From Lentzea sp. NBRC 102530 (GTDB lineage: Bacteria; Actinomycetota; Actinomycetes; Mycobacteriales; Pseudonocardiaceae): 64,000 nt of DNA. The position numbers and the translations under genes are program-made. The DNA is taken from positions 124,001-188,000 of the forward strand of contig NZ_BSTF01000015.1 in NCBI RefSeq assembly GCF_030269365.1, in the 5' to 3' direction. Positions 3,751 to 13,375 of the stretch are shown piece by piece (the stretch's first letter is position 1; every line of letters starts with the position of its first letter). The notes below the pieces were generated by a model. The model was given only the letters and a program-made list of their open reading frames with translations. It did no database searches and was not told the DNA's origin.

Positions 3751-4211
3751 TCATCCTTCGTGATAGTCACTATACATGACTAAATCGAGGGAGGCCAGCC
3801 ACTCCTTCGTCTGGTCGAGCCGCTCGGCGGCGTGCAGGGTCGCGGACGGGCCCCGGGAGGCCTCCTCGAAGACCACTCGGGTGCCGCCGCCGGGATCGGG
3901 GTCAGCAGCCACGACTGGTAGAAGCTCAGGCCGTCGCTCACCGCGATCCAGCCGAACCGTTCGGGACGGTCGAGCTCGCCGACGATGCCGTCGAGCGCGT
4001 GCAGGGCTGTCACCACGACGAACCCGCTGCCGACCGACAGCTCACCGCCGGCCCGGACCTCGGTGGTCCCGCGCTGCCACTCCGGCCACTCCCCCGCCGC
4101 CGTGAGGTGGTCGAAGAGGACCTCCGGCGCCGCCGCGACGAACCGTTCGTGGCTCACGAAGCTGTCGCACTGCGCCGGCCCCCAGCCTGGCGGCCAATGG
4201 ACTTCAGTCAT
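3751..4211 (-). pseudogene. SRPBCC/START-like protein, frameshifted near the 3' end
   Basis: The first about 105 residues read as an SRPBCC (AHSA1/START-like) lipid-pocket protein: SHERFVAAAPEVLFDHLT, then WPEWQRGTTEVRAGGELSVGSGF. As sequenced, the reading frame then turns into arginine/proline-rich nonsense and stops at TAG (3780-3782). One missing base near the G run at 3898-3901 restores LLTPDPGGGTRVVFEEASRG, a normal strand and C-terminal helix, running to TGA at 3751-3753, which overlaps the upstream ATG of the next gene. It is either a real frameshift or a sequencing slip. The tail of the restored frame runs through the operator element at 3761-3792. Confidence 0.7.
3761..3792. promoter_or_regulatory. 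Operator-like element, copy 2 of a 32-bp repeat
   Basis: Matches the element at 773-804 at 29 of 32 positions, including the ATAGTNACTAT palindrome and the ATGACTAAATC tail. It lies 28 bases upstream of the chosen start of the unknown gene (3733) whose operon contains the MarR regulator, which suggests autoregulation (inference). Confidence 0.6.
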
Positions 4212-4250
4212 GCCCCTCAGCGTCTCCTGGGACCCGCGGGCACAACATCA

Positions 4251-4260
4251 GTCACATGAC
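4251..4260. promoter_or_regulatory. GTCACATGAC site upstream of SRPBCC gene
   Basis: The exact decamer GTCACATGAC, followed by GGTCC, lies 40 bases before the SRPBCC start. The same decamer with GGTC occurs at 4982. It sits at the edge of the LuxR remnant, so it may mark a recombination endpoint as well as a regulator site. Confidence 0.4.
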
Positions 4261-4632
4261 GGTCCGCTCGTCGTACGCGCGCAACCAGAGAAGGGCCGCG
4301 TTCGACACCACGAGCCGGTCGGGAACGGGGCCGACGTCGAACCCGAGCGCGCACCTCAGCGCCGTGCGGTGGACCTCGCCGAGCGGGGGCATCTAGTCAC
4401 CGAGAGGGAACAGCAGCTGGTTGAGCGTCGAGTGGTTGATCTCGGACCCGAACTGCGCGCCGGCCGCCCTGAGCCCCAGCGCGCCGTTCACCTGCACGGC
4501 CAGCCGGTCGAGGACGGCGGTCTTGCCGACCCCGGCGTCCCCGCTCACGAGCAGCGCTCCGCCGCGCACTCCGGCGGTGTCGAAGTACGCCCTGATGGCA
4601 CTGATGTCCTGCTCGCGGCCGATCAGCGGACG
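4252..4632 (-). pseudogene. Remnant of a LuxR-family ATPase regulator (N-terminal ATPase part only)
   Basis: Reading from about 4632 down gives LIGREQDISAIRAYF, then GALLVSGDAGVGKTAVLDRL, a clear Walker A region of the large ATP-binding LuxR (LAL/MalT-like) regulators. It continues through INHSTLNQLLFPLGD to an in-frame TAG (4393-4395). The family pattern then resumes as HRTALRCALGFDVGPVPDRL and stops at 4252. There is no start codon, an internal stop, and the remaining roughly 800 residues are missing. It abuts the truncated AraC gene at about 4632, so this looks like a recombination scar. No function is expected. Confidence 0.7.
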
Positions 4633-4634
4633 CG

Positions 4635-5018
4635 GTGCTGGTGATGACCCTGCGCAGCCGCCCCGACCAGCGGCTCGACACCCCCGGCCTGTGGACGGCG
4701 ACGGGCGACGACGTGCTCGGCCGGGTGATCTCCGGCGCGCTGGAACAGCCGGGTGAGGCGTGGACGATCGAACGGCTGGCGGCCGAGGCGTCGATGTCCC
4801 GCGCGACCTTCCTGCGCCACTTCAGCGCACGCACCGGCACGACCGTGGCGCGCGAGGTCGGCTACCGCTCCGAGTCGGCGTTCAGCCAGGCGTTCCGGGC
4901 GGCGCTCGGCACGTCGCCGGCCCGCTTCCGCCGCGAGTCGTCCTCCCGCCGACCCGGCACCGCCCGGCACCGCCCGGCACCGTCACATGACGGTCGGACC
5001 GTCGCTCCAGTCATGTGA
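4635..5018 (+). pseudogene. AraC-family regulator, truncated and internally deleted
   Basis: 127 residues. WTIERLAAEASMSRATFLRH is the first helix-turn-helix of an AraC DNA-binding domain and REVGYRSESAFSQAFRAALG is the second. The roughly 25-residue linker helix that normally separates them is missing: the protein jumps from RTGTTVA straight to REVGYRS. The usual cupin-type sensor domain (about 180 residues) is also absent upstream, where the sequence is replaced by the LuxR remnant. It probably does not bind DNA normally. The 3' end overlaps GTCACATGAC-type sites, and intact relatives often sit beside alpha/beta hydrolases as here. Confidence 0.65.
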
Positions 5019-5019
5019 C
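4982..5019. promoter_or_regulatory. Inverted pair of GTCACATGAC sites upstream of chloroperoxidase-like gene
   Basis: GTCACATGAC at 4982-4991 and its reverse complement GTCATGTGAC at 5010-5019, 28 bases apart, end 68 bases before the hydrolase start at 5088. The arrangement resembles the pair at 1816-1874 before the other hydrolase gene, implying a shared regulator. Confidence 0.5.
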
Positions 5020-5087
5020 AGACCCTGTCGGCACGACGGCCGCGGCAGAGTAGCTCCCAACGGAAACGACCAGACAGGAGCAGGGCG

Positions 5088-5912
5088 ATGCCGACGATCA
5101 CCACCAAGGACGGCGTGGACATCTTCTTCAAGGACTGGGGCACCGGTCAGCCGATCGTCTTCAGCCACGGCTGGCCGCTCTCGTCGGACGACTGGGACAC
5201 CCAGATGCTGTTCTTCGTGCGGCAGGGCTACCGCGTCATCGCCCACGACCGCCGCGGCCACGGCCGTTCGGCCCAGGTCGGCACCGGCCACGACATGGAC
5301 CACTACGCGTCCGACCTGGCCGCCGTCACCGAGCACCTCGACCTGCGTGACGCGATCCACATCGGGCACTCGACCGGCGGCGGCGAGGTCATCCGCTACA
5401 TCGCGAACCACGGCGAGTCCCGCGTCGCCAAGGCGGCGATCCTCGCGGCCATCCCGCCGCTGATGCTCAGGACGGAGGCCAACCCGGGCGGCCTGCCGAT
5501 CGAGGTCTTCGACGACCTCCGCGCCCAGCTCGCGGCCAACCGCTCCGAGTTCTACCGCGCGCTGCCCACCGGCCCGTTCTACGGCTTCAACCGCGACGGC
5601 GCCGAGGTGCGCGAGGCACTGGTGGCGAACTGGTGGCGCCAGGGCATGATGGGCTCGGCGCTCGCCCACTACGAGGGCATCAAGGTGTTCTCGGAGTCGG
5701 ACTTCACCGAGGACCTCAAGAAGATCACCGTGCCGGTCCTGGTGATGCACGGCGACGACGACCAGATCGTGCCGATCGCCGACGCCGCGCTGCTGTCCGC
5801 GCCGTTGCTGAAGAACGGGACGCTGAAGGTCTACGAAGGCTTCCCGCACGGCATGCCGACCACGCACGCCGACGTGATCAACGCCGACCTGCTGGAGTTC
5901 ATCAGGTCCTGA
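5088..5912 (+). CDS. Alpha/beta hydrolase of the non-haem chloroperoxidase type
   Basis: 274 residues, the usual length for cofactor-free haloperoxidase/perhydrolase proteins. Family marks are [14 protein letters not shown] near residue 25, DRRGHGRS, the nucleophile elbow GHSTGG (Ser near 98), the acid in HGDDDQIVP near residue 225, and the histidine in [11 protein letters not shown] near the C-terminus. These enzymes are esterases that can also form peracids and halogenate in vitro. The start follows GGAGCAGGGCG. It is preceded by the inverted GTCACATGAC pair and the decayed AraC gene, its probable former regulator. Confidence 0.9.
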
Positions 5913-6092
5913 GTGGACTGATCGGTGCCGGGGTCGCGTCCGGGCCGCACAGCCTCAGCACGACGGGTCCGCCGCGCGATTCGGGGTCGCGCCCCGGACC
6001 CACGCACCACCCGCACCGGAGGCGGGGTCGGTTTCACCGCGATCGGGGTCGCGGTGCAACCACGCGCCCACCCGCACCCGGTGCGGCCCGGA

Positions 6093-6122
6093 GGCCGGAC
6101 GCGACGGGGGTCGCGTCCGGCC
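6093..6122. terminator. Bidirectional hairpin terminator
   Basis: A perfect 13-bp stem (GGCCGGACGCGAC with GTCGCGTCCGGCC) and a GGGG loop between the convergent ends of the hydrolase (5912) and EF-hand (6143) genes. A short pyrimidine run follows on the plus strand. The rest of 5913-6142 is GC-rich sequence with shorter GGGGTCGCG repeats and no gene. Confidence 0.7.
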
Positions 6123-6142
6123 CTTCTTCTCGTGCGTCGCGA

Positions 6143-6697
6143 TCAGGTGCGCTGCAACGCCTTCGGGTACAGCCAGCTGCCGGGCGTGTCCTCCGCCGGG
6201 TTCGTGTAGTAGTCGCGCACCGCCGTGATGTACTCCTGCACGCTGATCGCCCCGTCACCGTCCGTGTCGAGGTGCGCGAACGCGAGGCCGCACTCCTCCT
6301 CGGACAGCCCGCGCGCCCGCAACAGCACCTGGAACTCGCCCGCGTCCACCCGGCCGTCGCCGTTGGTGTCGACCAGGTCGAGCAGGGACGACACGATCTC
6401 CAGGAGGTCCGCGTCGAACGGACCGTGGTCGACGAACGCCTCGATCATGGCTTCGCGGTACTCGTCCGGGCCGATCCGGCCGTCCCGGTCGGCGTCGCAG
6501 TGCTCGACCAGCAGTTCCCAGAACCTGTCGTAGGCTTCGACCAGGTCCCGGCCGCGCTCGGAGGAGGCCGGTTCGCCGAACGCCCTGAGCAGGCGGTTGG
6601 CCAGTGCGTAGAAGTCCGCCAGTTCGATGACGCCGTTGCGGTTCACGTCGTAGTGGGCGAAGGTCGAGTCGATCCTGTGCTGCAACACCTGCTTCAT
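6143..6697 (-). CDS. EF-hand calcium-binding protein (calerythrin-like)
   Basis: 184 residues with four canonical EF-hand loops at about 17-28 (DVNRNGVIELAD), 68-79 (DADRDGRIGPDE), 110-121 (DTNGDGRVDAGE) and 144-155 (DTDGDGAISVQE), each with Asp at position 1 and Asp or Glu at position 12. This matches the actinobacterial calerythrin/sarcoplasmic calcium-binding protein type: cytoplasmic calcium buffers or sensors. No signal peptide. It is a single gene with its own promoter region upstream of 6697. A second, more divergent EF-hand gene lies at 62196-62738. Confidence 0.93.
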   Translation of the reverse strand: MKQVLQHRIDSTFAHYDVNRNGVIELADFYALANRLLRAFGEPASSERGRDLVEAYDRFWELLVEHCDADRDGRIGPDEYREAMIEAFVDHGPFDADLLEIVSSLLDLVDTNGDGRVDAGEFQVLLRARGLSEEECGLAFAHLDTDGDGAISVQEYITAVRDYYTNPAEDTPGSWLYPKALQRT

Positions 6698-6781
6698 GCC
6701 CTGGCACTGTTGGCGACGGGCCCGGGTCCGGGCAAGGCGCGTCCCTCTGTCGGGTGGTGTTGTTCAGCCGGTTTCGCGAAG

Positions 6782-6799
6782 CCGGTATAGTTATACCGG
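6782..6799. promoter_or_regulatory. Palindromic operator before methionine aminopeptidase gene
   Basis: CCGGTATAGTTATACCGG is a perfect inverted repeat with 8-bp arms and a 2-bp spacer, 22 bases before the TTG start at 6822. It is AT-rich in an otherwise GC-rich setting, so it may overlap a -10 box. The small XRE regulator at 7732 is one possible binder. Confidence 0.6.
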
Positions 6800-6821
6800 T
6801 AACCGCTGATGGAGGACCACG

Positions 6822-7640
6822 TTGATCGAGCTCAAGTCGCCGGCCGAGATCGAACGCATGCACGTCACCGGCCAGTTCATCGGGGAAGTGCTGGACGCGC
6901 TCGCCGCGAAGGCCGTGGCCGGGGTGAACCTGCTCGACCTCGAGCACCACGCCCGGCACATGCTCCAGGAGCGCGGTGCCGTCTCGTGCTACTGGGACTA
7001 CTCGCCGTCGTTCGGGCGCGGGCCGTTCCGCAACGTGACGTGCCTGGCGGTCAACGACGCGGTCCTGCACGGACTGCCGAAGGACTACGTGCTGCAGGAC
7101 TCGGACGTGCTGACGATGGACATCGCCGTCACCATCGACGGGTGGGCCGCCGACTCGGCCATGACCGTGGTCGTCGGCAACGCGCGCGAGGAAGACCTGC
7201 GGCTCGTGAAGACCACCGAGATCGCGCTGGCAGCGGCGATCGAGCAGGCGCAGGTCGGCAACCGAATCGGCGACATCTCCGCCGCCATCGGCGAGGTGTG
7301 CGCGCAGTACGGCTACAAGCCCAACCTGGAGTTCGGCGGGCACGGCATCGGCCGCACCATGCACGAGGCCCCGCACATCTCCAACGACGGCCGGCGCCGG
7401 CACGGCATGAAGCTCAAGCCGGGCCTGACCGTGGCCATCGAACCCTGGCTCGCCGCCACCACGGACAAGATCATCTACGACGACGACGGCTGGACGCTGC
7501 GGTCGGCGGACGGGTCGCGCACCGCGCACTCGGAGCACACGGTCGCGATCACCGAGGACGGGCCGCTGGTGCTGACGCGCCGCAAGAGCGAGCTGGAGGA
7601 CGCCGCGAACCCGGACGCGACCCAGGCGCGCACTCCTTAG
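6822..7640 (+). CDS. map: Type I methionine aminopeptidase
   Basis: 272 residues, about the usual 250-285 of type I enzymes. The metal-binding set is recognisable: DIAVTIDGWAADSAMTV (two Asp), GGHGIGRTMHEAP (His) and LKPGLTVAIEPW (Glu), with a final Glu in the HSEHTVAITEDG segment. The enzyme removes N-terminal methionine from nascent proteins in the cytoplasm. The start is TTG at 6822 after GGAGGACCACG. It is not next to ribosomal genes, so it is probably an accessory paralogue, under a palindromic operator and followed 91 bases later by an XRE regulator. Confidence 0.9.
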   Translation: MIELKSPAEIERMHVTGQFIGEVLDALAAKAVAGVNLLDLEHHARHMLQERGAVSCYWDYSPSFGRGPFRNVTCLAVNDAVLHGLPKDYVLQDSDVLTMDIAVTIDGWAADSAMTVVVGNAREEDLRLVKTTEIALAAAIEQAQVGNRIGDISAAIGEVCAQYGYKPNLEFGGHGIGRTMHEAPHISNDGRRRHGMKLKPGLTVAIEPWLAATTDKIIYDDDGWTLRSADGSRTAHSEHTVAITEDGPLVLTRRKSELEDAANPDATQARTP

Positions 7641-7731
7641 TCCCGGGGACGGTGGCGAAGTCCCGTTCGCTCGGGTAACCATGCAGTGGGCTGCAGGAGA
7701 GGAACGGAGAACCCACTACACGGGAGTCTGG

Positions 7732-8019
7732 ATGACCACAGGGGGCAGGGCGGAGCTCGGCATCGACCTGGACGAGCTGCGTCTGCTGGTCGGGATGTCC
7801 TACCGCGAACTGGCGCGCCGCACCGGGTGCGCCCGCAGCACGTTGCACGACGCGTTGACCGGACGCCGGTTTCCGCGGCTGGACACGGTTCTCGCGATCG
7901 CCCAGGCGTGTGGCGGGGACCCGGCGCGGTGGCGGTTGCGGTGGGTGGCGGCGTGCAAACGCTCTCACGCACCGCGCAGCGAGGCCACGACGTCCTTGCA
8001 GTCGACCAACCCCAGCTGA
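7732..8019 (+). CDS. Small XRE-type helix-turn-helix protein
   Basis: About 95 residues. The core (DLDELRLLVGMSYRELARRT, then CARSTLHDALTGRRFPRLDT) is a Cro/CI-type helix-turn-helix common at the N-terminus of actinobacterial regulators; here almost nothing follows it except a short basic tail. I chose ATG 7732 because GGGAG precedes it and upstream in-frame residues look non-coding. The last 55 bases overlap the convergent S26 peptidase gene. It may be cotranscribed with map and bind the palindrome at 6782 (inference). Confidence 0.7.
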   Translation: MTTGGRAELGIDLDELRLLVGMSYRELARRTGCARSTLHDALTGRRFPRLDTVLAIAQACGGDPARWRLRWVAACKRSHAPRSEATTSLQSTNPS

Positions 8020-8291
8020 CGGGAGTCCTGTGACCTCGGGTTGTCCCCCACCACCACGACGAACCCGTCCGGCACCTGCTCGACGCCGGGCAGCGGCAGC
8101 CAGTCCGGCACCGGGTCGCCCGCGACCGCGGCCACCCTCTTGACCCGGTGCGGCAGTTCCGGGTCCGGTACCCGGAACACGATCACCTCGCGGCGGCGCG
8201 GGCGCCGGAAGAGCTTGCGCGCCAGGAGCCGCTGCCCGTCGTGCAGCGTCGGCGCCATGCTGTTGCCGCGCACCGTGACCCTGATCCACAT
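7965..8291 (-). CDS. S26 signal-peptidase-like protein without membrane anchor
   Basis: 108 residues. The signal peptidase I catalytic boxes are present: GNSMAPTL with nucleophile Ser11, HRVKRVAAVAGD with general base Lys51, and VVGDNPRSQDSR. The usual N-terminal transmembrane segment and most of the beta-barrel cap are missing: the protein begins only ten residues before the catalytic serine. It is the last gene of a minus-strand operon with a cysteine-rich precursor, a MauE-thioredoxin protein and an ABC exporter, and its ATG overlaps the ABC stop. It probably cleaves the precursor leader after Ala-Gly-Ala (inference). Confidence 0.85.
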   Translation of the reverse strand: MWIRVTVRGNSMAPTLHDGQRLLARKLFRRPRRREVIVFRVPDPELPHRVKRVAAVAGDPVPDWLPLPGVEQVPDGFVVVVGDNPRSQDSRQLGLVDCKDVVASLRGA

Positions 8292-10069
8292 CAGCTGACC
8301 CTCACGTCCTGGTAGCCGTTCGCCTGCAACCGGAACAGGCGCGCGTACTCACCGCCCGCGTCCATCAACGCGTCGTGGTCACCCTGCTCGGCGATCCGGC
8401 CGCCGACCAGGGTGACGATGACATCGGCACCGCGCAGCGCCGAAAGCCGGTGCGAGATGAGCAGTCTCGTACGGCCTTCCGCGTGCCGGCGCACGGTCTC
8501 GTGCACCCGGTGCTCGCCCTCGGCGTCCAGCCCCGACGTCGGTTCGTCGAGGATCATCAACGCCGCGTCCGCGCGCATCAGGCACCGGGCCAGCGCCACC
8601 CGTTGCCACTGCCCGCCGGACAACGTCACGCCCGTGCGTTCCTCGTCGGCGTGCGTGCGCGACAGCACGGTGTCGTACCCGTCCGGCAACGCCCCCAGCA
8701 CGTCCGCCACCCGTGCGCGTGCGGCCGCGTCGGTGATCCGCGCGCGATCCCCCAGCGCGGACACCTGGCCCACGCCGACGTTCTCGGCCGCGCTCAGGTC
8801 GTAGGTCATGAACTCCTGGAACACCACGCCGATCCGCGCCCGCAGCGCCGTGACGTCCAGATCGCGCAGGTCCACGCCGTCCCACGTGATCGAGCCGCGC
8901 TGCGGGTCGTAGAACCGGCACAGCAGCTTCACCAGCGTGCTCTTGCCCGCCCCGTTGACGCCGACCAGCCCGACCGCCGCACCCGCCGGGATCGTCAGGT
9001 CGACGCCCCGCAGCACCCACGGCCCGTCGTCGGAGTAGCGGAACCAGACGTCCCGCAGCTCGATGGTGCCCTCGCCGGGCGCCGCAGTGCCGCCCACCAG
9101 GTCGTCGGGCGTCGCGAGCACGTCCAGGTAGTGCCCGAAGAGCCGCACCGCCCGCCCGGCCTCACCGAGTTGCAGCACCACCCCGGACAGGCCCGTCTGC
9201 ACGGCCGCCACCGCCCCGAGGAACAGCACGAGGTCCCCCACCGACGACCGCCCGGCCACCACGCTCAACGCCACCACGACCGTGCCCGCCCCCGCCACGA
9301 CCGCCCCGAGCAGCGCGAGCCCGCTCTGCACGACCGTCCCCCGGCGCTGAGCGGCGAGCCGCGCGCCGCTGACCGACGCCAGCGACTCGACCATCCTGGT
9401 GTGCAGCAACTCCCCGAGCCCGAACAGCCGGATCTCCTTGGCGGCACGCACATCCGTGAGCAACGCACGGTAGAACAGCCGCCGCCGGTCCGTCGCCACC
9501 CAGGCCTCCTCGGTGGAGGCCTCTCGCCGCGCCGTCGCGAGGCGCGCGACCACCGCCGTCACCGCGAACGCCAGCAGCAGCACCGTCATCGGCGGCCAGA
9601 CGACCAGCAACGCCCCGGTGAAACTCGCCAGCAGCACGACCGACCGCACGGCCTCCTGGGTGAACTGCGAGATCGTCCCGGGAGCCTCCTGCGCCGCCTG
9701 CTCGGCGAGGCGCACCCTGTCGTGGAACACGGGGTCCTCGATCCGGCGCAGCCCCGGCAACGTCGCGATCCGCTGGAACAACGCGCTCTCCACCGTCACC
9801 GCGACCCGGTGCCGCACGACCTCCCCGAGGTACCCGGTCAGGTACAGCAACGCGATCGCGACCCCGCCGACCAGTGCCGACGCGATCGCCAGGAAGACCG
9901 CCCGGTCCGTGCCGATCCCGGACGTCAGCCCGTCCACCAGCAGCATCGTCAGCCACGCCCCAGCGGCGGGCGCCGCTCCGGCGACGACCGTGAGCACGAG
10001 GGTTCCGGACGCGAGCACCGGCGCGGCCCGGAACGGCACCGCCAGCGCGGCGCCCGCGGCCCGGATCAC
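8291..10069 (-). CDS. ABC exporter, fused membrane and ATPase domains
   Basis: 592 residues: six membrane segments in about 1-310, then a nucleotide-binding domain with Walker A GVNGAGKST, signature LSGGQ, Walker B LMILDEPT and the H-loop in LISHRLSAL. This is a type IV (peptide/lipid exporter) half-transporter that works as a homodimer. There is no N-terminal C39 peptidase domain, so any exported peptide must be processed by another protease, and the S26 protein is encoded next to it. The GTG start overlaps the stop of the MauE-thioredoxin gene. By context it exports the cysteine-rich peptide. Confidence 0.92.
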   Translation of the reverse strand: MIRAAGAALAVPFRAAPVLASGTLVLTVVAGAAPAAGAWLTMLLVDGLTSGIGTDRAVFLAIASALVGGVAIALLYLTGYLGEVVRHRVAVTVESALFQRIATLPGLRRIEDPVFHDRVRLAEQAAQEAPGTISQFTQEAVRSVVLLASFTGALLVVWPPMTVLLLAFAVTAVVARLATARREASTEEAWVATDRRRLFYRALLTDVRAAKEIRLFGLGELLHTRMVESLASVSGARLAAQRRGTVVQSGLALLGAVVAGAGTVVVALSVVAGRSSVGDLVLFLGAVAAVQTGLSGVVLQLGEAGRAVRLFGHYLDVLATPDDLVGGTAAPGEGTIELRDVWFRYSDDGPWVLRGVDLTIPAGAAVGLVGVNGAGKSTLVKLLCRFYDPQRGSITWDGVDLRDLDVTALRARIGVVFQEFMTYDLSAAENVGVGQVSALGDRARITDAAARARVADVLGALPDGYDTVLSRTHADEERTGVTLSGGQWQRVALARCLMRADAALMILDEPTSGLDAEGEHRVHETVRRHAEGRTRLLISHRLSALRGADVIVTLVGGRIAEQGDHDALMDAGGEYARLFRLQANGYQDVRVS

Positions 10070-11001
10070 GCCACCGGCGCCGGCGCACCGGCGAAGTCGT
10101 CGAGCTTGATCCCGGACGCCGTCACCACTCCCCCGTGCGTGTGCAGCAACGTCGGGTAGGCCATCACCCCGAACGCGGACAGCACCGGGTCGTCCGTGCC
10201 GACCACCGCGACGCGCCCCAGTGCGCTGACCTTCTCCGCCAGCCGGGCCGTGCCTTCGGGATCACTCGCGTCTCCGTCCACAACGGACACGAACCGCGTG
10301 GCGGGAGGAGACGCGACCAGCGCGTCGGTCAGCGTCCGGCACGGCCCGCACCCGACGGAGAAGAACCCGACCTGCACGGGCCCGTCGAGGTCAGCCTCGG
10401 TGAAAGGCAGCCCGTCGGTGTCGAGCACCGTGAACGGCCTGACCACCGCACCCGGCCGCGGCAGGTTCGACTCCCGCTTCGGCACGGTGTTCTCCTGCAG
10501 TTCGCGCACCCGCGCCACCAGCCCGAACGTGAACAGGACGTGCAGCGCCACCACCACGGCGAGCAGCACGACGGCGATCGTGAGCAGGGTCAACGGTTCC
10601 TCCCAGGAAGCGGGCGACGGCACGAACGCGCCCAGAGCGGCGACAGCGAGCAGCATCCCGTTGCGCACCAGGTGTTTCGGCCCCAGCACGTCGCCGCCCG
10701 CACCGAAGCACCTGCAGCGCACGGACTTCCGTGCGGTCACGGCCAGCAGGACGGCGCCGCAGAACGCCGCCAGCAACACCGCCGCGAGGCCGTACCCGAA
10801 CAGCGTGCCGGGAACGGCGAGCAGGACGACCGCCAGCGCCTCCCCGGCCAGGACCAGCACGGCGATCACGGTGGCGGGCAACGGAACGAGCGCGGCGATC
10901 GAGTCGCGGAACTCCGCGAACCCCTGCCGGGAACGCGCCTTGCCGGCGAGGGCGGCCAGGAAGACGGCGATGAGCAGCAGGCGAGCGAACAGATCGAGCA
11001 C
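10066..11001 (-). CDS. MauE-type membrane protein fused to a thioredoxin-like domain
   Basis: 311 residues. Residues 1-165 hold four hydrophobic segments of the MauE/DoxX redox-membrane family with a CRC motif (Cys96, Cys98) between them. Residues about 185-311 form a thioredoxin/TlpA-like domain with the active site FFSVGCGPC (Cys218, Cys221) and the cis-proline segment VMAYPTLL. MauE is known for disulfide formation in methylamine dehydrogenase. Here the fusion is placed to make or shuffle disulfides in the six-cysteine peptide encoded just upstream. Start GTG 11001 is chosen for its AGGGGG ribosome site; longer readings run back into the hairpin and the peptide gene. Confidence 0.85.
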   Translation of the reverse strand: MLDLFARLLLIAVFLAALAGKARSRQGFAEFRDSIAALVPLPATVIAVLVLAGEALAVVLLAVPGTLFGYGLAAVLLAAFCGAVLLAVTARKSVRCRCFGAGGDVLGPKHLVRNGMLLAVAALGAFVPSPASWEEPLTLLTIAVVLLAVVVALHVLFTFGLVARVRELQENTVPKRESNLPRPGAVVRPFTVLDTDGLPFTEADLDGPVQVGFFSVGCGPCRTLTDALVASPPATRFVSVVDGDASDPEGTARLAEKVSALGRVAVVGTDDPVLSAFGVMAYPTLLHTHGGVVTASGIKLDDFAGAPAPVA

Positions 11002-11021
11002 GGGAACCCCCTGAAGCGAGG

Positions 11022-11052
11022 CGGGGTGCCGGCGACGGACGCCGGCACCCCG
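11022..11052 (-). terminator. Hairpin between precursor-peptide gene and maturation genes
   Basis: A perfect 13-bp stem (CGGGGTGCCGGCG with CGCCGGCACCCCG) and a 5-base loop, beginning 5 bases after the peptide stop codon and ending about 20 bases before the MauE-thioredoxin start. There is no T run. Such partial terminators are typical after precursor genes, giving more peptide mRNA than processing-enzyme mRNA. Confidence 0.65.
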
Positions 11053-11057
11053 TCGGG

Positions 11058-11219
11058 TCACTTGCAGGAACTGCTCACGGACGAGCAGATGCCGTTGCAG
11101 TTGAAGCGGTAGCCCTTCTTGCAACACTGCCCGTGCTCCGGCACGCAGGCACCGGCATCGATCTTCGGCAGCACGAGTCCGACGAGCCTTTCACCGGCCA
11201 GCTTCGCGAAACGCTTCAC
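11058..11219 (-). CDS. Cysteine-rich precursor peptide (putative exported disulfide-rich peptide)
   Basis: 53 residues from GTG 11219, which has an excellent GGGAGGAG ribosome site 7 bases upstream. The leader (1-24) begins MKRFAKLAGERLVGLVLPKI and ends Asp-Ala-Gly-Ala, a small-x-small signal-peptidase-like site. The core (25-53) has cysteines at 25, 32, 33, 41, 45 and 52, spacing C-x6-CC-x7-C-x3-C-x6-C, with basic and serine-rich loops and a C-terminal Lys. The leader is amphipathic rather than a classical Sec signal peptide. The following genes encode a redox protein, an exporter and a peptidase. I do not recognise a named family; a bacteriocin, signal or toxin-like knotted peptide is plausible. 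Confidence 0.85.
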   Translation of the reverse strand: MKRFAKLAGERLVGLVLPKIDAGACVPEHGQCCKKGYRFNCNGICSSVSSSCK

Positions 11220-11294
11220 GGGTCCGCTCCTCCCAGTTCGATCAGCAACAACGCTGACCACGCTGGCCGCTGGGGGCGGCGAGCGGAAGGCGGG

Positions 11295-11320
11295 TCGGAC
11301 GATCTCGGACGGGCTCGGAC
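11295..11320. promoter_or_regulatory. Three helically phased TCGGAC repeats upstream of the peptide gene
   Basis: TCGGAC occurs at 11295-11300, 11305-11310 and 11315-11320, exactly 10 bp apart, between the stop of the epimerase gene and the peptide gene, 75 to 100 bases before its start. Copies on one helical face are typical of cooperative regulator binding sites. Confidence 0.45.
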
Positions 11321-12408
11321 TACTGACCGGAGACCGGCCCCAGCATCGCCCGGACGGCGGTCGCGATCAGCTCCGACGGCGACCCCGTGCCGTACGGGGA
11401 CGGGATCTCGCGCAACGCCGCGCGGTGCCCCTCCACGTCGTCGAGCCAGGCCAGCACGGCGCTGCCGACCGCCGGGCCGGGCGGGACGAGGGTGCCGAAC
11501 GTGCCCTCGATCTCCGGGCGTTCGGTGCTGCGCCGCACGACCACGACGGGCCGCTTCAGGACGCTGACCTCCTCCTGGATGCCGCCCGAGTCGGACACGA
11601 TCACGGCGGAGGCGTGCGCGAGGGCCAGGAAGGCCCGGTACGGCTGGGGTTCGATGACCTGGAGGCCGTGCAGCAGCCCGTCCAGGCCGAACGCGGTGAC
11701 GCGCTGGGCGGTGCGGGGGTGCAGCGGCAGCACGACCGGCAGCGGCAGCCGGCCCAGTTCCCGCAGGACGATCTCGAGGTTGGTGGCGTCGTCCACGTTC
11801 TCCGGGCGGTGGATCGTGGCGAGCACGTACCGGTCGTGCTTCAGGCCGAGGTCGCCCAGGACGGCGTCCTGCTCGTCGTGGCCGGGCAACGCGTGGGCGA
11901 GCGCCTCGACGACGGTGTTGCCGGTGACGGCGATGCGGCTGTCGGCGACGCCCTCGGACAGGAGGTTGGTGCGGTTCAACGACGTCGGCGCGCAGCAGAG
12001 GTCGGAGAGGTGGTCGATGAGGACGCGGTTGTGCTCCTCGGGCATCGCGCGGTCGTAGCTGCGCAGGCCCGCCTCGACGTGCACGAGCGGCACGTCGCAG
12101 GCGTTGGCGGCCAGGGCTCCCGCGAGCGCGGACGTCGTGTCGCCCTGCACGATGACGGCCGCGGGCCGTTCGGCGGCGAGCACCTCGTCCACGGCGGAGA
12201 CCGCGCGGCCGAGCTGGTCACCCCGGCGCAGGCCGCCGAGCCGCAGTTCGTGGAAGCCGCCCGGTTCCGGCACATCACGGCGGATGAGCGAGTACATCGA
12301 GCGGTCGTAGTGCTGGCCGGTGTAGATCATGGTGCACGCGCTGCCGAAGTGTTCGACGAGCGGCGCGAGTTTGATCAGTTCCGGTCTTGTGCCGCAGACG
12401 ATCGTCAC
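11320..12408 (-). CDS. wecB: UDP-N-acetylglucosamine 2-epimerase (non-hydrolysing)
   Basis: 362 residues from GTG 12408, the family length. It begins TIVCGTRPELIKLAPLV, the diagnostic WecB N-terminus, and contains GQHYD, VIVQGDTTSALAGA, HVEAGLRSYDRAMPEEHNR and the C-terminal UDP-binding SDSGGIQEE. It converts UDP-GlcNAc to UDP-ManNAc for cell-surface polysaccharides. The start was chosen for GGGAA upstream and homology; longer in-frame readings extend into the promoter. It is divergent from the polysaccharide operon starting at 12551 and 100 bases upstream of the peptide operon on its own strand, so weak cotranscription with that operon cannot be excluded. Confidence 0.92.
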   Translation of the reverse strand: MTIVCGTRPELIKLAPLVEHFGSACTMIYTGQHYDRSMYSLIRRDVPEPGGFHELRLGGLRRGDQLGRAVSAVDEVLAAERPAAVIVQGDTTSALAGALAANACDVPLVHVEAGLRSYDRAMPEEHNRVLIDHLSDLCCAPTSLNRTNLLSEGVADSRIAVTGNTVVEALAHALPGHDEQDAVLGDLGLKHDRYVLATIHRPENVDDATNLEIVLRELGRLPLPVVLPLHPRTAQRVTAFGLDGLLHGLQVIEPQPYRAFLALAHASAVIVSDSGGIQEEVSVLKRPVVVVRRSTERPEIEGTFGTLVPPGPAVGSAVLAWLDDVEGHRAALREIPSPYGTGSPSELIATAVRAMLGPVSGQ

Positions 12409-12482
12409 GGTGTTCGTTTCCCGCACCGCGGCAAGGTACTTCACCGATCTTGACCGAACCGGGCAAATGCCGCCCACGTTCA

Positions 12483-12521
12483 CTCGAAAGAGTTGCCTGG
12501 GATATCGCTCGAAAGTGTTGC
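12483..12521. promoter_or_regulatory. Direct repeats in divergent promoter of the polysaccharide locus
   Basis: CTCGAAAGAGTTGC (12483-12496) and CTCGAAAGTGTTGC (12508-12521) differ at one position and are 25 bp apart, in the short region between wecB and the first gene of the plus-strand polysaccharide operon. They are a candidate common regulatory site for both directions. Confidence 0.4.
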
Positions 12522-12550
12522 GTCCCAAGCGTGTCGTACTGTCCGGCCCC

Positions 12551-13375
12551 ATGTCCGGTCATCTGGCCCTCGTCGTGTCCACCGTCCTGTACGGCCTGGG
12601 GATAGTCGCGCAGACCGTCGCCGCGCGCAGGGCCGACGAACGTCCCGGCGCCGGGGTGGGCCTGCTCGCCCGGCTCGCGTCGGATCGCCTGTACCTGCTG
12701 GGTTTCACCGGTCAGGTCGGCGGTTTCCTGTTCGCGTTCCTGGCCCGCGAGGACCTGCCGCTGTACCTGGTGCAGGCGGGGTCGTCGAGCGCGGTGGGGC
12801 TCGCGACGGTGATCGGCGTGCTGCTGCTCGGCTGGCGCATCCAGCGGGTCGAGATCGCGGTGCTGGTGGTGATGGCGTGCGGCCTGCTGCTGCTGACGGG
12901 CGCGGCCGCCCCGTCGACCGCCCGCGAACTGCCGCTCGTGCCCGCCCTGGTGGTGCTGGGGGTGCTGACCCTGGCGGTGCTGCCGCTCGCGCGCACGTTC
13001 CGGGCCTTGACGCCCGTGCTGGCCGGCCTCGCGTTCGCCGTCGTGGCGGTGGCCGCGCGCAACGTCGCCGGCAAGCCGTTGCTCGACCTGCTGCTGCACC
13101 CGCTGACGTGGGTGATGGTGCTCGGCGCGTTCGTCGGGCAGGCGTGCCTCGCGACGGCGTTGCAGCGCGGTTCGGCGACGTCGGCGGTGGCGTCGATGGA
13201 CGCGACGACCGTGGTGATCAGCTCCGCGGCCGGGCTCGCGTTGATGGGCGACCAGATCACGCCCGGCCGCGAGTGGTGGGTCGCGCTCGGCGTGCTGCTG
13301 GTGGTGTCCGGCGTGCTGGTGCTGGGGTCGGTGTCGGCGCGCGCGTCCGCTCTCGTGCCGGTGGGTGAGCGGTGA
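12551..13375 (+). CDS. DMT/EamA-like membrane protein
   Basis: 274 residues with about nine or ten hydrophobic segments: LALVVSTVLYGLGIVAQTVA at the N-terminus and a second half with ATALQRGSATSAVASMDAT. This fits the drug/metabolite transporter type seen in actinobacteria, 10-helix proteins with two EamA-like halves. It is the first gene of the plus-strand polysaccharide operon; its stop overlaps the deacetylase GTG. It might move a small metabolite or precursor; the substrate is unknown. Confidence 0.75.
   Translation: MSGHLALVVSTVLYGLGIVAQTVAARRADERPGAGVGLLARLASDRLYLLGFTGQVGGFLFAFLAREDLPLYLVQAGSSSAVGLATVIGVLLLGWRIQRVEIAVLVVMACGLLLLTGAAAPSTARELPLVPALVVLGVLTLAVLPLARTFRALTPVLAGLAFAVVAVAARNVAGKPLLDLLLHPLTWVMVLGAFVGQACLATALQRGSATSAVASMDATTVVISSAAGLALMGDQITPGREWWVALGVLLVVSGVLVLGSVSARASALVPVGER

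Follow-up and report, generated by a model that had tools for sequence, protein, structure and literature searches.

A leader-defined family of cysteine-rich precursors beside a MauE–thioredoxin, ABC exporter and S26 peptidase cassette in Lentzea and other actinomycetes

What does a short, cysteine-rich reading frame encode when it heads a row of genes for a redox protein, an exporter and a protease? The question is raised by a locus of Lentzea sp. NBRC 102530, within a stretch of 64,000 nucleotides (contig NZ_BSTF01000015.1, positions 124,001 to 188,000; hereafter the window). An earlier note had described there a 53-residue precursor with a strong ribosome site, a leader ending in AGA and a core with the cysteine spacing C-x6-CC-x7-C-x3-C-x6-C, and all of these features were recovered when we re-read the sequence. 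On the minus strand, the precursor gene is followed after a gap of 56 bases by genes for a MauE–thioredoxin fusion, an ABC exporter and an S26 peptidase, with the start/stop overlaps that the note had mentioned (here read as GTGA between fusion and exporter, TGATG between exporter and peptidase; Table 1). Pfam confirmed the domains: PF07291 in the MauE part (E = 1.9e-17), ABC_tran in the exporter (E = 2.5e-32; ABC_membrane under its cut-off, peptidase domain not listed) and PF10502 in the peptidase (E = 4.9e-19), which keeps the SM motif; the thioredoxin part by itself gave a weak match (E = 0.045). The fusion matched no mau equivalog in NCBIfam. A Pfam scan limited to 10 neighbouring window proteins found no mau dehydrogenase gene, no LanB/LanC/LanM-type lanthipeptide enzyme, and no lasso cyclase or B protein. 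We give a probability of about 0.8 to the reading that these genes form a cassette dedicated to the secretion and oxidative folding of a disulfide-rich peptide, which rests on gene content, conservation, leader and core architecture, cysteine parity and co-occurrence, all computed directly.

The small reading frame is not a chance one: it occurs at the same position, with the same neighbour genes, in other species. A search of 390 genomes of its own family (E of 0.01 or better) gave precursor matches in 29. Fifteen of these (12 of the 24 Lentzea searched and one genome in each of three other genera) carry the window type, nine carry a shorter four-cysteine type, all in one genus (g11), and two (G239 and G309) carry the leader with other cores; the remaining three were judged to hold chance matches, and loci L002–L005, L029, L030 and L033, likewise judged chance, were left out before counting. 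Searching named genomes with the MauE–thioredoxin protein returned seven loci, five from Lentzea and two from Nonomuraea candida, and a six-cysteine precursor lies upstream in all seven; Lentzea atacamensis is among the carriers of a window-type locus. A ribosome site of the GGAGG/AAGGA type precedes the start in all 19 homologues inspected. Across 12 close precursor sequences, non-synonymous divergence (dN) is 0.045 and synonymous divergence (dS) 0.20, a ratio of about 0.23 that is alike for leader and core, and by this measure purifying selection acts strongly on both in the window clade. Flanking genes vary: over about 13 kb, loci L034 and L035 have only the XRE gene in common with the window, and this gene is kept beside the cassette in Pseudonocardiaceae six-cysteine loci, which marks precursor, MauE–thioredoxin, ABC exporter, S26 peptidase and XRE regulator as the unit. 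A first clustering of all open reading frames (ORFs) was of no use, since GC-rich DNA also yields ORFs that are out of frame.

The earlier note had proposed a search for homologous cysteine-rich ORFs beside related cassettes, and such ORFs are present. All four functions (MauE, thioredoxin, ABC exporter and S26 peptidase) were found in 31 of the 36 loci that supplied the profile seeds, and in 26 of 40 held-out loci chosen by hand among the matches listed in a search of family f19, which from its Nonomuraea loci is probably Streptosporangiaceae. Taken singly, the held-out loci contain thioredoxin in 37 cases, S26 peptidase in 36, ABC exporter in 35 and MauE in 31. Twenty control stretches, taken from the same genomes at a distance of about 100 kb, contained one thioredoxin and no other partner function (all four, 0 of 20). 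In genus g71, probably Streptomyces, all four functions accompany 18 of 20 loci. The redox motifs are kept (CxC in 64 of 64 MauE proteins, CxxC in 71 of 72 thioredoxins), as is the SM motif in 69 of 70 S26 proteins. The fusion described in the earlier note is a single ORF in the window; most relatives examined have separate genes (56 loci, as opposed to eight with one ORF, all of them Pseudonocardiaceae of genus g1 or, in L074, g8). Being fused in some loci and split in others marks MauE and thioredoxin as partners; the separate thioredoxins inspected begin with a hydrophobic segment.

What these loci share in the precursor is the leader. Profiles built from 12 and then 20 precursors (A2 and A3) reach peptides with the same leader (GDRLL..VP..AxA) and unrelated cores, which fall into 41 clusters at 50% identity and 16 cysteine orders. 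Over the 41 clusters the D is kept in 39, the R in 38 and the P at +8 in 38, although the motif that registers the leader itself demands D/E and R/K/V/Q/S, so that conservation at those positions is partly by construction; the two alanines of AxA are kept in 40 and 41, and the residue between them varies. The window core has six cysteines; other members carry eight or ten. Profile A3 matched in 75 of 200 f19 genomes, in 30 of 68 genera and with up to 10 matches per genome, and in 22 of 150 g71 genomes; named carriers include Streptomyces clavuligerus, S. nigrescens, Embleya sp. and Nonomuraea gerenzanensis. A phylum-wide sample gave seven matching genomes of 396, namely the window's own and six at E = 0.003–0.008 that all have in-frame stops, about chance level. 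Neither the window precursor nor nine other superfamily precursors is covered by a model of Pfam or NCBIfam; only weak, unrelated matches were returned for them.

Full pairing of the cysteines into disulfides predicts an even number per core, and this is what we found almost throughout: 88 of 88, 26 of 28 and 10 of 10 in three profile-found sets, or 124 of 126, counted over related precursors that are not independent draws. Among clusters with at least five cysteines all 38 are even, as against 10 of 26 control ORFs; this is the fair comparison, since control ORFs with at least four cysteines are even in 66 of 82 cases because most have exactly four. Only loci with readable cysteine-rich peptides were followed in the class search; L147, with a broken core in a run-on ORF, was excluded from the 88, and five candidates from a relaxed scan (L265, L273, two in L276, and L277; all even) were not counted among the 126, as that scan gives hits in controls too. 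Parity bears directly on the idea that the cysteines bind metal, in the manner of a metallothionein or metallophore, and that the redox proteins keep them reduced. High cysteine content would suit this idea, and MauE and thioredoxin could reduce as well as oxidise. Even numbers over 16 cysteine orders suit pairing better, however, the export genes adjoin the precursor, and no CxxC or histidine pattern is common to the cores; we consider metal binding very improbable and set it aside on the strength of parity across unrelated frameworks.

Under the secretion and folding reading, the leader would direct the precursor to the ABC exporter for passage through the membrane; cleavage after A-x-A would be the task of the S26 protease; and MauE with its thioredoxin partner would oxidise the cysteine pairs to yield a 29-residue peptide with three disulfides, a core length predicted from the AxA site. 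This peptide would begin with CVPEHG and have a calculated monoisotopic mass of 3117.281 when oxidised, as against 3123.328 when reduced. The machine would be largely indifferent to the core, one type of leader and cassette serving many unrelated cysteine frameworks. From the genes we infer that the peptide is exported, where it is cleaved, that its disulfides form, in which order these events come and that it is active, and the oxidation, export and leader cleavage suggested in the earlier note gain support from gene content, co-occurrence and parity. The leader could instead be a Sec signal and the exporter serve something else, as AxA and an S26 protease are marks of Sec-dependent export, and S26 relatives have an amino-terminal membrane segment. 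Yet a conserved acidic–basic pair (D/E-R) stands midway in the leader, whose hydrophobic run is short, and the exporter gene stays beside the precursor at the frequency given above for held-out loci (35 of 40), which makes this alternative quite unlikely.

The earlier note had called the system undescribed, and this needs qualification. We found no description of the leader family or of the exporter and S26 cassette, and in the freely readable literature nothing beyond the candidates of decRiPPter, which flagged MauE with cysteine-rich precursors in Streptomyces (PMC7794033); this comparison and those that follow hold for the available portions of the papers cited. In that work, three candidate families contain mauE, one of them mauD as well, each precursor has at least eight cysteines, and MauE is proposed, for candidates only, as a modifier of ribosomally synthesized and post-translationally modified peptide precursors (PMC7794033). 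As in the window, a MauE homologue (PF07291 here) lies beside a cysteine-rich precursor in an actinomycete; the window core has six cysteines rather than at least eight, and the available text names no leader family, exporter and S26 pairing or parity (PMC7794033). Judged by this description, the decRiPPter MauE families likely belong to the superfamily reported here.

Other systems share single elements. For the class I lasso peptides sviceucin and humidimycin, the DoxX-family proteins SviE and HumE and the thioredoxin-like SviF and HumF have been proposed to form disulfides in peptides of actinomycetes, but those clusters need B1, B2 and C proteins, none of which was seen in the window neighbourhood (PMC9266682, PMC7168211). 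Pediocin PA-1 and bactofencin A operons likewise combine peptide, ABC transporter and thioredoxin-like accessory; there the transporter cuts a double-glycine leader and an immunity gene is present, and here the leader has AxA, the S26 protease is separate and no immunity gene was recognised (PMC5465099). A class II bacteriocin with a peptidase transporter was rejected, the exporter having no C39 domain in Pfam and the leader ending in AGA/AxA. Actifensins are six-cysteine peptides with a leader, from an actinobacterium and in several copies per operon, with a mass six Da under the reduced form; unlike the present loci they have split ABC genes, a subtilisin-like protease and a LuxR regulator, and thioredoxin goes unmentioned in the portion available (PMC6989792). 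TMcin resembles the proposed pathway in leader removal, a dedicated disulfide oxidoreductase (TmcD) and an ABC exporter, and differs in its membrane-embedded precursor and S2P-type protease (PMC13252029).

A likeness in organization lies outside bacteria. Conotoxin gene superfamilies combine a conserved leader with a hypervariable cysteine-rich core in many frameworks, as here; they use the eukaryotic secretory pathway, and no shared ancestry is implied. We put at even odds the broader proposal that the loci are a bacterial counterpart of these superfamilies, in which one leader and a core-agnostic machine (C39-less ABC exporter, S26 peptidase and MauE/thioredoxin oxidase) fold dozens of frameworks, knottin-type included, in several actinomycete families, and so make up a ribosomal peptide class of their own defined by leader and machine. 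The system is real, widespread and nearly undescribed; we see in it a variant of leader-guided secreted disulfide peptides, and there is a fair chance that it forms a separate class. If so, actinomycetes would hold a large and nearly unannotated store of peptides that are stabilised by disulfides and produced with a compact cassette, which may take almost any core and could offer a bacterial route to knottin-like molecules and a platform for disulfide-rich peptides. New antagonistic peptides might then come from well-studied producers, for instance by way of the cassette on a Streptomyces clavuligerus plasmid, and the MauE/DoxX–thioredoxin pair, whose role is unsettled in lasso clusters, would gain a setting in which disulfides are the main modification.

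We lean to an antagonistic peptide of secondary metabolism as the product: many loci have a SARP regulator nearby, the cores are hypervariable, precursors occur in tandem and the loci are patchily distributed. SARP regulators are typical of antibiotic clusters, and one (BTAD) lies near 39 of 61 f1 and f19 loci other than the window type and 8 of 20 g71 loci, as against 1 of 20 controls. The XRE type is found near 10 of 15 window-type loci, none of the other 61 f1 and f19 loci, 3 of 20 g71 loci and none of 20 controls. Beyond cassette, precursors and SARP, no protein is common to more than seven of 51 diverse loci, and no conserved immunity gene is evident among them. The missing gene and the strong purifying selection in the window clade would fit a peptide that is secreted for signalling or development and does not act as a weapon, but the cores are hypervariable, paralogues stand in tandem (seven in L155), presence is patchy (half of the searched Lentzea) and SARP regulators recur, and we regard signalling as unlikely.

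A target in eukaryotes, for an inhibitor or toxin such as a protease inhibitor or an anti-nematode or anti-fungal peptide, would also account for the missing immunity gene, and 9 of 41 core clusters have the order C-C-CC-C-C that is found in many knottins. Against this, the window core has the order C-CC-C-C-C, unlike the knottin order, and neither its fold nor its sequence has a significant match among solved structures; an action on eukaryotes thus appears an unlikely role. The full precursor was modelled with low confidence (predicted local distance difference test score, pLDDT, 57.6). For residues 23–53 the best model, with three short strands, reached a pLDDT of 92.4 and the other four 64–72. 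By sequence, no solved-structure relative of the window precursor was found at E up to 10, and a profile search of solved structures gave contryphan-Vc1 as best match at E = 0.45; Foldseek returned nothing better than E = 4.7, and the models give no disulfide connectivity. In the four-cysteine relatives two cysteines are missing together, which hints that the last cysteine may be bonded to one of the two adjacent ones. One other superfamily core had no useful match among solved structures. The bacterial cis-defensin pattern CX(2,18)CX(3)CX(2,12)CX(4,17)CXC, as given in the available part of its source, is not matched by the window core, which led us to discard that assignment, and is matched by 1 of 41 cluster representatives (L079) (PMC11561630).

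Several observations weigh against a dedicated cassette with an antagonistic product. At the thresholds used, one or more of the four functions is missing from 14 of the 40 held-out loci. MauE by itself is widespread in f19 (77 of 80 genomes); at 20 MauE places picked because no precursor was known there, all four functions occurred at six, and a profile-recognised precursor was present in only two of these six complete cassettes (L269 and L281, the latter already among the f19 profile matches). The tie of cassette to substrate stands at the seven MauE–thioredoxin loci and is less firm at cassettes reached through MauE. At the other four of these, cysteine-rich ORFs with AxA appeared only by the relaxed scan, which gives hits in 17 of 20 controls as well, or in 6 of 20 if AxA is demanded; divergent precursors may escape the profile, or part of the cassettes may handle a different substrate. 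Conversely, L080 (G309:C1, 7334-7781) has two adjacent eight-cysteine precursors, but over 13 kb no gene for any of the four enzymes; the genes on either side are of housekeeping type and include an enolase-like ORF. Odd cysteine counts occur in L250 (seven, full cassette) and L260 (three, truncated). SARP regulators lie near only 3 of 15 window-clade loci, and no immunity gene is evident, none being recognised between the cassette genes. The DoxX and thioredoxin genes were dispensable for disulfides in class I lasso peptides (PMC9266682), so that oxidation here may not depend on MauE and thioredoxin.

The same side of the balance holds the S26 protein itself. By hydropathy, all 14 window-clade S26 proteins are without an amino-terminal hydrophobic segment, so that cutting might take place on either side of the membrane. 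The anchor-less enzyme might act ahead of export and cut its substrate in the cytoplasm. The maturation protease of nickel superoxide dismutase may work in this way, and sod_Ni_protease is the second-best NCBIfam model for the window protein, under its cut-off. Across 69 S26 proteins, however, the segment directly precedes the catalytic domain in 53 and is borderline in two (L163 and L167), an automatic count of 54 including L038, which was flagged for a different stretch. With 53 of the 55 proteins outside the window clade carrying it, the ancestral arrangement was probably membrane-bound, and cytoplasmic cutting is doubtful.

Individual loci add detail to the superfamily. In L155 (G826:C28, about 7040-12962), seven tandem cysteine-rich precursors stand beside one cassette. 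Locus L288, at 4006-8231 of the Streptomyces clavuligerus plasmid pF1D18A, has a complete cassette and two tandem six-cysteine precursors annotated as hypothetical proteins. If cut after AHA, two residues ahead of the first cysteine, these would give peptides with masses of about 4913.219 and 4797.026. A ten-cysteine relative of the window core (CVPENGQVCCSCC...) is encoded in L163 (G850:C1, 6603-6722) and suggests that frameworks may grow by added cysteine pairs. At L072 (G250:C25), a window-type precursor with GADA instead of DAGA lies beside a decayed cassette, in which MauE–thioredoxin is split over two frames, the ABC gene is truncated and S26 was not found. L147 (G801:C41, 6160-7317) looks like a decayed precursor: its core is cut short and leads into a long ORF, with no cassette gene within 13 kb. 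In L257 (G1390:C1, 2265-2843), a weak leader-like stretch (E = 0.27) opens an ORF that runs into helix-turn-helix-like sequence.

Table 1. Positions of the cassette, its precursor and the adjoining regulator in the window
Feature	Position	Strand	Basis
Shine-Dalgarno GGGAGGAG of precursor	11227..11234	-	sequence
Precursor peptide gene, 53 amino acids; GTG start at 11219, stop ends 11058	11058..11219	-	homologues, dN/dS
Precursor leader, residues 1-24, MKRFAKLAGERLVGLVLPKIDAGA; predicted cleavage after AGA	11148..11219	-	conserved AxA and leader register over 41 core clusters
Predicted mature core, 29 amino acids, six cysteines	11061..11147	-	sequence, homologues, model of residues 23-53
MauE–thioredoxin fusion, 311 amino acids	10066..11001	-	PF07291; CRCFG and CGPC motifs
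MauE membrane domain, Pfam residues 3-126	10624..10995	-	Pfam
Thioredoxin-like part with CGPC, limits approximate	10069..10479	-	motif, Pfam
ABC exporter without C39 peptidase domain, 592 amino acids	8291..10069	-	Pfam, NCBIfam
S26 signal-peptidase-like protease, 108 amino acids, without N-terminal membrane segment	7965..8291	-	PF10502, SM motif, hydropathy
XRE-type regulator, convergent with S26 gene and overlapping	7681..8019	+	HTH_31 (Pfam)

A scan for sigma-70 promoters and terminators found nothing. Two sets of neighbours were dropped as partners: the upstream UDP-GlcNAc epimerase gene, common in the fetched stretches only to L038 and L071, and the downstream M24 and EF-hand genes, shared there only by L036, L037, L038 and L071. 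The EF-hand gene encodes a calcium-binding protein of 184 amino acids at window positions 6143-6697 on the minus strand.

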